Shown: one piece after another, positions 30,058-34,803 of the stretch
How positions within the stretch are numbered: position 1 is the stretch's first letter
Layout of the letters: the number at the start of each line of letters is the position of its first letter
Source: Desulfobacterales bacterium
GTDB lineage: Bacteria; Desulfobacterota; Desulfobacteria; Desulfobacterales; JAHEIW01
Reading direction: 5' to 3'
NCBI GenBank assembly: GCA_030066985.1
Contig: JASJAN010000023.1
Location: 1-64,000 of the forward strand
DNA length: 64,000 bases
Made by a program: the position numbers and the translations under genes
The notes under the pieces: model-generated
Databases searched by the model: none
What the model was told of the DNA's origin: nothing
Seen by the model: only the letters and a program-made list of their open reading frames with translations

Positions 30058-31065
30058 TTAAAAATCGTTCTCGAGCACAATCCGGTAGCGCGGTTTACCT
30101 GTCCGCAACCTTTCTAATGCGTCGTTGACTTTGGACATCTCAAAGGTTTCTATCATCGGTTCGATGCTATGGCGGGCGGCAAACGCCAACATTTCGTTGA
30201 TGGTGGCCGGGCTTCCCAGAGGCGATCCGCCAAAGGATTTTTGCCCGATAATCAAAGGCACGGTCGTTATCTCAACCGACGGGACCGCGCCGACAAGATG
30301 CAGTTTGCCTTTGGGACTCAAGGCGTTGAGGTAAGCATCCCAGGGCAGCGCAATATTGACGGTTACCAAGATCATGTCGAAATGTCCGGCGAGGTTTTCC
30401 AGCGCACCTGTGTCGCGGGTGCTCACATAATGATGGGCGCCCAGCTGCCGTGCCGCTTTCTCCTTTTCAGCGCTGGTGGAGAAAGCGGTTACTTCGCATC
30501 CCCAGGCTCGCAGAAATTGCAGGGCCATGTGCCCCAGGCCGCCGATACCCACCACGCCGACCCGATCTGTGGGACGGATGTTGTTTTGAACGAGGGGATT
30601 GAATACTGTAATACCGCCACAGAAAAGCGGACCGGCGCTGGCGGCTTTTACGCCGTCGGGCAGCGGAATCACCCAGCCCATGTGTGCGCGCACACGGTCC
30701 GCAAAACCGCCGTGTCGGCTCACTATCGTTGCCTGGGCGTTGGCGCACAGATTATGGTTTCCGGACATGCACTGGGAGCACAGCATGCAGGACTGTGCAA
30801 ACCAGCCCAACCCCACCGTCTGACCTTTGGCCAGGTGCGATACGCCTGGGCCGATGGCTGAAATTTCACCAACAATCTCATACCCGGGCACCAGCGGATA
30901 TTCGGCAATTTCCCATTCGTTGTTGATCATGCTCAGGTCACTGTGACAGATACCGCAGTGGCTTACCTTGATGTCGACCTATTCAGCTCCGATTTCACCG
31001 AGCTTATATTCAAACGGCTGCAGCGGTGCAGAAGCTTCTTTGGCGGCATAAGCTTTAACATCCAT
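30058..31065 (-). pseudogene. Zinc alcohol dehydrogenase (YahK/cinnamyl-ADH type) with in-frame amber codon
   Basis: The complete reading frame would give 335 residues, from the ATG at 31065 (GGGAG upstream) to 30058. Codon 29 is TAG (30979-30981), in a place where relatives have Glu/Asp (GAE-stop-VDIKV). Translation on both sides is otherwise intact: HCGICHSDL with a catalytic zinc Cys follows the stop, then GYEIVGE, the four-cysteine structural zinc loop (CMLCSQCMSGNHNLC) and GIGGLGH for NADP. A restart at the ATG at 30930 would lose the first zinc ligand. Most likely a recent nonsense mutation or read error; readthrough as pyrrolysine is a remote option, since many genes here end in TAG. 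Confidence 0.75.
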
Positions 31066-31147: not shown

Positions 31148-31729
31148 TCACCAAATAGTCTTATACGAATCAGGCGCCAAATCCCACTTGCGACCGTAAA
31201 CGTGGATACGGTCGGTCCTCTCATTTTGATCATATAACCACCCGCCGGCATGAACCCAAGCAAGAATACCCCCGCGCAGATTTATAATGGTAAATCCTTT
31301 TGGCGCGAGCTGCTGGGCAAATATGCCGCTGCGGTAAGCAATGGTGCAATAGGCAATTTTGAGGTGATCCCTGTATTTTTCAGGATTTTTCAGAAAAACT
31401 TCGGACGTTATCGCGCCGGGAAGCATTGATATCCGCTGCTCTTCCGGTTTGCGTGTGTCGATAAAGATAACTCTTCTTTCTCTGGCAAACCGAGCGGCAG
31501 TATTGGGTTCGACATCCGTCACTTCAGGAAAACTAATCTGATAATCGAGATATAGTTTTTCAATCACCCTTCGCTTTTCAAGGTCTGATAACGGCTCGAC
31601 GGCAAACACAAGCGACGCAATCGATGAAATAAGGAGGACCGTCAGAAACTTGCGTAAGGTCGTTATTGTAATCCAATTTGTCATCGAGTTAATAATTTTG
31701 TTAAGCTCTCTGTAGAACACCGCACTCAC
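31148..31729 (-). CDS. Exported rhodanese-like protein
   Basis: About 193 residues if the GTG at 31729 is used; an ATG at 31684 is an alternative, and neither has a clean ribosome site. A hydrophobic signal or anchor (FLTVLLISSIASLVFA) precedes a single rhodanese domain: VIFIDTRKPEEQRIS, MLPGAI, then the active loop YCTIAYRSG with the catalytic Cys and RGGILAWVHAGG near the end. The domain carries sulfur or acts as a phosphatase-like fold; in the periplasm it may handle thiosulfate or polysulfide. It is divergent from the NTF2-like selenoprotein candidate at 31962. Confidence 0.82.
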   Translation of the reverse strand: MSAVFYRELNKIINSMTNWITITTLRKFLTVLLISSIASLVFAVEPLSDLEKRRVIEKLYLDYQISFPEVTDVEPNTAARFARERRVIFIDTRKPEEQRISMLPGAITSEVFLKNPEKYRDHLKIAYCTIAYRSGIFAQQLAPKGFTIINLRGGILAWVHAGGWLYDQNERTDRIHVYGRKWDLAPDSYKTIW

Positions 31730-31961
31730 TCCAATTCAGCATAAGGTTTGTTAGAATAGATATATTAATACCGGAAATCAAAATGTCATTACACCACAAA
31801 GGCCCTGGTCGGATTTGCCTAAAAAAGGCTTTATTTATTATAGATCTTATGTGAAACCATCACATGTCCCGGTTCAATCCGAAGACGCTCAACGATATGA
31901 AATGGTTTGTGGGCGTCTTTTTCAGGATCACCGCATGAAGATTGTCGATGGGGAAACCATT

Positions 31962-32369
31962 ATGAAAAGGTTTTTACTTGCTTTCTTTATGATTTTACCA
32001 TTGGTGGGTAGCATTTTTGCAAAAACCACATATGAAATTGCCCCTGAATACATCGCCGCGCCGGCCCGGTGATATTTTAATGCCGCCAGCAAAAGCGATC
32101 TGAAAGCCATGCGCCCTTGTTTTCAGGATGGGGCAGTCATCATAGATGTCAGCCGCAAGATTGAGGACATTGAGGCCATTAGCCGCTGGGCCCAAAATGA
32201 GGTCTCTAGTGGGCACTACACCATATTGCAAATTGTGACGAAGGAAAAAAATGCTCTGAAACTGCTGATCAGGTTTGCACCGCAAGGGCATAGCCATGGA
32301 TTCAAGGCTCATTACACATTTGAATTCAAGGACGGTAAGATCAGTAAAGTGAACTTGCGGTATGCATAA
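31962..32369 (+). CDS. Probable selenoprotein: exported NTF2/SnoaL-like protein with in-frame UGA (Sec37)
   Basis: Read through the TGA at 32070-32072, the frame gives 135 residues. Residues 1-19 are a signal peptide (FLLAFFMILPLVGSIFA). The body has the NTF2/SnoaL pattern: YFNAASKSDLKAMRPCF, then IEAISRWAQ and an ending FEFKDGKISKVNLRY. The UGA lies just before YF. The next gene is a paralogue, and in the alignment PAR-UGA-YFNAA against PVR-Cys-FFDAA the UGA meets a Cys; a second Cys 16 residues on (Cys53, Cys59 in the paralogue) is shared. A UGA/Cys pair with intact coding on both sides is the usual sign of selenocysteine. A CTGAAA/TTTCAG hairpin (32100-32126) is only a weak SECIS candidate. 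The alternative is a nonsense mutation. Confidence 0.65.
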
Positions 32370-32426: not shown

Positions 32427-32873
32427 ATGAAGTTTAACTATATTGCCACGTTGAACATTTTACTATTGATTACTGCTTTGACTGCCAACGGTGACAATTT
32501 TAATGATTTCAGCAAGGACAGTCAGCTGCAAGAATTATCGCCACCGGTGCGCTGTTTTTTTGATGCCGCCGCTCAAAATGATCGCACCGCGTTGATGACC
32601 TGTTTTGCCGATGACGTGGCGGTCAGCGGCAAAGCCAAAGCTTCAATTGTACCCGATACGGAAACAGCCGAGCCTCCGGAACTGGGGTATCATGAGACGT
32701 CCATCACCCGCGTGCACGGTATCGTTGAGGTCAGCTTTAGGGCCTTTGGCATTCACTATGACATCATGGTGGAGTGCTGGGATCATCAATACGATCCCCG
32801 CTGTGTGGAAGATACTTATATACTGGAGCTTGTCGAGGGTCTCAAAATGGCATCCGATAAAGCAACGTCCTGA
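32427..32873 (+). CDS. Exported NTF2/SnoaL-like protein, Cys paralogue of the preceding gene
   Basis: A 148-residue protein with a signal peptide (about residues 1-20) and an NTF2-like body: PPVRCFFDAAAQNDRTALMTCFADDVAVSG, in which Cys43 and Cys59 are 16 residues apart as are Sec37 and Cys53 in the upstream gene. Later parts (VHGIVEVSFRAFG, then CWDHQYDPRC) differ and have two more cysteines. NTF2-like domains bind small molecules or act as simple enzymes (SnoaL cyclases, isomerases); conserved Cys pairs suggest a redox or thiol role here. The ATG is preceded by AAGGAAG. It lies 57 nt after the selenoprotein candidate and shares its transcript. Confidence 0.7.
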   Translation: MKFNYIATLNILLLITALTANGDNFNDFSKDSQLQELSPPVRCFFDAAAQNDRTALMTCFADDVAVSGKAKASIVPDTETAEPPELGYHETSITRVHGIVEVSFRAFGIHYDIMVECWDHQYDPRCVEDTYILELVEGLKMASDKATS

Positions 32874-34344: not shown

Positions 34345-34803
34345 ATGCCAGTCGCAAAGAAAAAAGCAAAAAAGAAAAAAACTGTTGCCCGAAAAAAAAC
34401 GGCCGCAAAGAGAAAAACAACGGCCAGGAAAAAAACTGCTGCAAAAAGAAAACCGGCTGCCAGAAAAAGAACTGCCGCTAAGAGAAAGACGGCTGCAAAG
34501 AAAAAGACCGCCAGAAAAAAGACAGCCGCTAAAAGAAAACCGACAAAGAAAAAAGCAAAAGCCAGAAAGAAAACCACGGCTAAAAGAAAGACAGCTAGAA
34601 AGAAAACGGCTGCTAAAAGAAAACCGGCTGCAAAAAGAAAGACAGCCAGAAAGAAAAAGGCTGCCAAGAGAAAACCAGCTGCTAAAAGAAAGACAGCCAG
34701 AAAGAAAAAGGCTGCCAAGAGAAAACCGGCTGCCAAGAAAAAAGCAAAGGCCAGAAAGAAAACCACCGCAAAGAGAAAGACAACCAAAAGAAAAAGACGG
34801 TAG
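34345..34803 (+). CDS. Lysine/alanine-rich histone H1-like DNA-binding protein
   Basis: A 152-residue protein composed nearly only of Lys, Ala, Arg, Thr and Pro, built of repeats such as TARKKTAAKRK and KPAAKRK, with no hydrophobic core. This composition matches the eukaryotic histone H1 tail and bacterial proteins of the Hc1/Hc2 and AlgP kind, which bind DNA without sequence specificity and compact the nucleoid. The ribosome site AAGGAG and a near-consensus promoter support high expression. The long open frame on the opposite strand is a by-product of the repeat. Tandem codon repeats make length changes by slippage likely between strains. Confidence 0.85.
   Translation: MPVAKKKAKKKKTVARKKTAAKRKTTARKKTAAKRKPAARKRTAAKRKTAAKKKTARKKTAAKRKPTKKKAKARKKTTAKRKTARKKTAAKRKPAAKRKTARKKKAAKRKPAAKRKTARKKKAAKRKPAAKKKAKARKKTTAKRKTTKRKRR

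Follow-up and report, generated by a model that had tools for sequence, protein, structure and literature searches.

The window, that is, the whole stretch of 64,000 nucleotides analyzed here, belongs to a draft Desulfobacterales genome of 81 contigs (97.8% complete) and carries a SnoaL/ketosteroid isomerase (KSI)-like gene, NTF2a, followed by a paralogue, NTF2b, and preceded by genes for a rhodanese-domain protein and a zinc alcohol dehydrogenase (ADH) on the opposite strand (Table 1). The NTF2a frame translates as MKRFLL...ARUYFNAA...RYA*, where U marks its sole in-frame stop, a TGA. Both the extent of this gene and its continuous frame broken by that TGA alone had been given by the first-pass annotation, made from the nucleotide sequence only, and were confirmed.

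Table 1. Features of the NTF2 locus and of the genes adjoining it in the window.
Feature	Position	Strand	Description
ADH	30058..31065	-	Zinc alcohol dehydrogenase; one in-frame TAG at 30979-30981
Rhodanese	31148..31729	-	Open-frame protein with a rhodanese domain; by eye, hydrophobic near the N-terminus and with a CTIAYR loop resembling an active site
NTF2a	31962..32369	+	Exported SnoaL/KSI-like gene; single UGA in an otherwise open frame
In-frame TGA	32070..32072	+	Residue 37; nearest relatives have Cys there
Hairpin	32100..32126	+	8 bp, 27 nt past the UGA; 11-nt apical loop starting CA
TGT	32118..32120	+	Cys53, partner co-varying with position 37
NTF2b	32427..32873	+	Paralogue; first ~60 residues like intact Olavius NTF2b (60%), C-terminal part not

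The read-through product of NTF2a comprises 135 residues and begins with a signal peptide, as judged by eye. It scored 26.4 bits against the SnoaL_2 profile (PF12680), slightly below the Pfam cut-off of 27, and had no match in NCBIfam; its orthologue in the Olavius-associated proteobacterium Delta 1 (hereafter, Olavius Delta 1) reached 32.1 bits against the SnoaL_2 profile. An AlphaFold2 model built from a 19-sequence alignment (mean pLDDT of the whole, 87.9) adopted the NTF2/KSI fold over residues 31–135, with every ten-residue block from residue 31 onward above 90, residue 37 lying within helix 33–43 and Cys53 within helix 47–53. The top match in a Foldseek search with this model was the ketosteroid isomerase 6uae (E = 1.7e-7), and a PDB profile search with NTF2a placed 4u13 first (E = 6.7e-10). 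The NTF2/SnoaL-like domain proposed earlier is corroborated by the model and by the Foldseek and PDB profile searches. NTF2a has its fold and profile in common with the SnoaL_2/KSI-like NTF2-fold proteins, such as the nearest solved structure, 4u13 (SMa1630), and the KSI of Comamonas (Pseudomonas) testosteroni; in contrast to these proteins, it is exported, going by its signal peptide, it shares a Cys37/Cys53 pair with its subfamily, and its codon 37 is UGA. Tyr38 and Asp62, invariant in three NTF2a alignments (A2, A3 and A4), are taken by us to correspond to Tyr14 and Asp38 of KSI. Since the product matches an intact orthologue over its full length and its residues 31–135 adopt the NTF2/KSI fold, the NTF2a frame is more than a product of chance.

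The closest relative of NTF2a that was found is the intact gene of Olavius Delta 1 (locus L069, 3001–3423; identical in DNA and in gene order in genome G589), which is 48% identical to the read-through product over its full length (E = 3e-35), carries the Cys pair and, like NTF2a, lies near an NTF2b gene. It differs from the window gene in being intact with Cys37, in being set apart from NTF2b by an F420-type NADP oxidoreductase gene and in the completeness of that NTF2b. Relatives came from tblastn against plasmids (10 records, the best from Deinococcus aetherius, 43.8% identity, E = 5e-23) and from a profile scan of genome contigs (27 loci out of 36 pattern matches, the Olavius Delta 1 locus included), for which the profile was needed, as single-sequence scans of genome and viral contigs with NTF2a gave no relative. 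Cys occupies position 37 in the relatives from Olavius Delta 1, Deinococcus, Vibrio (two), Hoeflea, Pelagimonas and Aestuarium (partial). Among 33 aligned sequences, with the NTF2a UGA scored as Cys37, Cys was present at both positions 37 and 53 in 7, at neither in 26 and at one only in none. This set takes in seven of the ten plasmid matches (Streptomyces H4–H6, 40.8% identical like H3, being left out) and leaves out two further sequences, the partial Aestuarium relative (L047), which has Cys37/Cys53, and a distant Cupriavidus relative (L048), which has Ala37/Cys53 and is the sole exception to the co-variation. The pair is also found in the NTF2b proteins of both the window and Olavius. From this distribution, the UGA takes the place of one member of a Cys pair that co-varies, in agreement with the first-pass claim of a UGA aligned with Cys in the company of a second Cys. 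The expectation that homologues would have Cys or UGA at this place holds for the nearest relatives, whereas position 37 is Ala, Arg, Gly or Val in 26 of the 33 sequences, and the pair is therefore dispensable. Linking helix 1 to helix 2 of an exported protein, Cys37 and Cys53 probably form a disulfide, and a catalytic role for them is unlikely because most relatives are without the pair.

NTF2b had been described as a paralogue matching NTF2a around the UGA; this holds for its N-terminal part (PVRCFFDAAAQNDRTALMTCF), to which the resemblance is limited. Beyond about 60 residues its likeness to the intact Olavius NTF2b is lost, and the C-terminal 82 residues alone matched neither Pfam nor plasmids. 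Its structural model fell below 50 pLDDT at residues 63–119 and 128–148, a weak result from an alignment of only 8 rows, and a search in 92 relatives returned the gene itself and one weak match to the N-terminal part. As to NTF2a, 21 of 24 conserved family columns are kept in the comparison with the Olavius orthologue, versus 39 of 91 positions elsewhere, which is similar to intact relatives and argues that constraint lasted until lately. NTF2a departs from the conserved columns at 4 of 23 (G69D, R74S, G83S and V103I, the last common to the Olavius orthologue), the most among the 33 sequences. Such departures were rejected as proof of decay because intact relatives differ from each other by similar numbers, with no clear excess in NTF2a.

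UGA decoding, and in principle UAG decoding too, is to be expected of this organism, since its genome holds selB (TIGR00475, 376.6 bits), a tRNA-Sec (75.2 bits, anticodon tca), seven genes that contain an in-frame UGA (3 of the 13 matches to the molybdopterin family, 4 of the 5 to FlpD) and pylS (325.5 bits, cut-off 178). A genome devoid of selB and tRNA-Sec was among the findings that the first-pass annotation would have taken to mean a nonsense mutation; both are present. Within the window itself, neither Rfam at gathering thresholds nor ARAGORN gave a match. Genes for Sec, namely selB and tRNA-Sec, thereby coexist with the Pyl gene pylS in this genome (L115, at G000:C24:87676-88407; L007; L011).

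A SECIS element, for which the first-pass annotation had suggested a search in the 60 nt after the UGA, does not stand out there by the scripted bSECIS model, under which the control genes gave mixed results. In the part of its source that was consulted (PMC13188914), this model is defined by an apical loop of 3–9 nt with a G among the first two positions, an upper stem of 4–16 bp, a distance of 16–37 nt from the UGA and a minimum free energy (MFE) of at most -7.5 kcal/mol, and the hairpin listed in Table 1 falls outside it by its loop length and its first two loop bases. The model was scripted in three forms, with 174 Cys codons and 600 other codons as background and 7 Sec-type genes as controls. 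The loose form asks for 4 or more enclosing pairs and an MFE no higher than -7.5. NTF2a passes it at -8.3 kcal/mol, its loop being closed by just one stacked pair, and 5 of the 7 controls pass; this form says little, since it is also passed by 46% of the Cys codons and 43% of the others. NTF2a fails the strict form, which is our own demand for four stacked pairs under the loop and is passed by 4 controls, failed by 3 and passed by 21–24% of the background. With a GG/GU loop added, NTF2a fails again, and 4 of the 7 controls, 8% of the Cys codons and 9% of the others pass. The region after the UGA folds no better than its shuffles (z = +0.40; 121 of 200 as good). Together, the SECIS and folding results count mildly against a selenoprotein. 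The base following the UGA is U in NTF2a and C or G in the seven controls; it was rejected as an informative sign, since a conserved Tyr comes next and its codon starts with T.

No relative bearing a UGA was found. Single-sequence searches with NTF2a returned only its own genome, both in 96 relatives (1/96) and in a sample of the phylum (1/395). Profile searches gave 15 of 395 genomes in the phylum (its own and weak matches, none with internal stops), 3 of 389 in the order (its own, Olavius Delta 1 as G589, and one weak match, none of them a UGA relative) and 1 of 389 in the class (its own only), in samples that overlap. Some of the collections scanned, including those of genome contigs and plasmids, may lack records very near the window's own. 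All 27 profile-scan loci read through position 37 with no stop. Neither a profile search of viral contigs nor a search of phages gave any match.

Around the Olavius gene, the order is a MarR-type regulator, an aldo/keto reductase, NTF2a, the F420-type NADP oxidoreductase and NTF2b, followed by an oppositely oriented MFS transporter; the oxidoreductase gene had no significant match in the window. The corresponding place could be read in two of three congeners (G001 and G002). In G002 (L040), it holds a 51-nt NTF2 relic (73% identity, E = 2e-5; KSDLAALRTCFRNDAVI) that is nearer NTF2a than NTF2b and after which the frame breaks. In G001 (L039), a match to NTF2a is absent there, and all that is left of the rhodanese gene is about 42 codons interrupted by a stop; for G003 (79% complete), none of the matches listed falls on the NTF2 region. 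At least two congeners are losing this place. The non-coding block 31766–31790 of the window is shared with G001 and G002, though the adjoining genes decay there, and is possibly regulatory. The first-pass annotation had read the rhodanese as a hint of sulfur or thiol chemistry, a link that we do not retain: no rhodanese was found by tblastn in the regions of 6.4 and 9.0 kb that surround the Olavius NTF2a, and G002 and G004 have an open rhodanese frame with no intact NTF2 gene adjoining. On these grounds, the rhodanese was rejected as a functional partner. The ADH gene lies 0.9 kb from NTF2a and is intact apart from its TAG, which falls on a variable site occupied in three relatives by Glu, Asp or Gln; among the matches listed for five members of the genus and family, none was to the ADH DNA. 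In a genome with pylS, this TAG could be a nonsense mutation or else a site where pyrrolysine is tolerated.

NTF2a is probably a gene recently inactivated by a nonsense change, its UGA presumably going undecoded. This reading is favored by the local decay (congener relics, the missing oxidoreductase, the unrecognizable second half of NTF2b and the ADH TAG), by the lack of UGA relatives in the searches, by the failed strict SECIS form and by the absence of the Cys pair from most relatives. NTF2a would belong to a patchily spread family of exported SnoaL/ketosteroid isomerase-like proteins with a Cys37–Cys53 pair. Lying in a small cluster that the genus appears to be losing, it would have been inactivated rather recently, when its Cys37 codon became a stop; ribosomes would halt at the UGA and release only 36 residues, most of them signal peptide. 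However, Cys37 to TGA is only one of 47 single-base changes able to create a stop in NTF2a, so that a random nonsense would land there in only 1.5–2.1% of cases, depending on the weighting, and on any Cys as TGA in 3–4%. Additionally, the frame shows no further lesion although an NTF2 gene probably stood there already before the window's genome (G000) and G002 diverged, the conserved columns are kept about as in intact relatives, and the SECIS result is weak, given that three of the seven Sec-type genes fail the strict form and NTF2a passes the loose one. Dozens of nonsense-broken genes are possible per genome, and a UGA that falls on a Cys now and then is therefore to be expected. The prior was set at about even from the yield of deep-Sep, for which the consulted part of that study gives 12 genes belonging to new selenoprotein families from 20 genomes (PMC12013277); the local evidence shifts this prior towards the broken gene.

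The working selenoprotein proposed by the first-pass annotation was not borne out, given the missing UGA relatives, the lack of a SECIS that stands out and the decaying surroundings, and we consider it rather unlikely. In such a protein, Sec37 would replace Cys37 and form a selenenylsulfide with Cys53, between helices 1 and 2 in an exported protein of KSI fold, the UGA being decoded by SelB and tRNA-Sec with an atypical SECIS. This would account for the pairing of the UGA with Cys in aligned relatives whose partner Cys co-varies, for coding sequence conserved on both sides of the UGA over the full-length Olavius match, and for an otherwise intact frame in which random nonsense has about a 2% chance of striking Cys37, in a genome with selB, tRNA-Sec and seven in-frame-UGA genes, three of which are themselves without a strict SECIS. 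Against it stand a strict SECIS that is absent, a fold no better than shuffles, a decaying cluster, a Cys pair lacking in most relatives and the want of any UGA relative in our searches. As far as the consulted parts of the sources show, bacterial selenoproteins predicted from UGA/Cys pairs (Sargasso Sea, PMC1088965; deep-Sep, PMC12013277) resemble NTF2a in the UGA–Cys alignment within a Sec-decoding genome; those families have SECIS-like stem-loops after the UGA, in contrast to NTF2a, which has no clear SECIS. Other UGA relatives are reported there for six of the nine new deep-Sep families, whereas none was found for NTF2a, and the remaining three without one leave such a case some room (PMC12013277). 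A Sec37–Cys53 protein of the SnoaL/KSI/NTF2 fold with an atypical SECIS, standing beside an ADH whose TAG is possibly read as pyrrolysine, so that two neighboring genes would depend on recoded stops, is slightly less credible still.

An assembly or sequencing error, by which the genome really has a Cys codon and NTF2a is an intact Cys member, would suit a draft of 81 contigs, an otherwise intact frame and a TGA one base away from a Cys codon; it is improbable, as one base error does not account for the change in NTF2b and the congener relics. A translation restart at ATG 32109 (ORF 32109–32369), giving an 86-residue remnant with its own role but no signal peptide, is very improbable, since its product would be without helix 1, whereas all 27 profile-scan loci have the helix-1 stretch in frame.

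A SnoaL/KSI/NTF2-fold protein that contains Sec would, to our knowledge, be the first of its kind, and this fold would join the selenoproteome should the UGA be decoded as Sec. A literature search judged by titles and abstract openings found no description of an NTF2-like, SnoaL or ketosteroid isomerase selenoprotein. Term searches of the consulted main texts gave no occurrence of SnoaL or NTF2 in PMC13188914, PMC12013277 and PMC8318568, and none of SnoaL in PMC1088965. If the UGA is not read as Sec, the locus is a caution for searches based on UGA/Cys pairs: a chance nonsense at a conserved Cys, in an otherwise intact gene of a Sec-decoding genome, passes their main homology filter, and it is the local decay and the missing UGA relatives that betray the broken gene.

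Two further features of the window are recorded here. An ORF at 34345–34803 (+) is lysine/arginine-rich and repetitive, with a histone H1-like look, and a TAA around 52460 (-) is flanked on either side by coding-like codon use and may mark another interrupted gene or a gene end.
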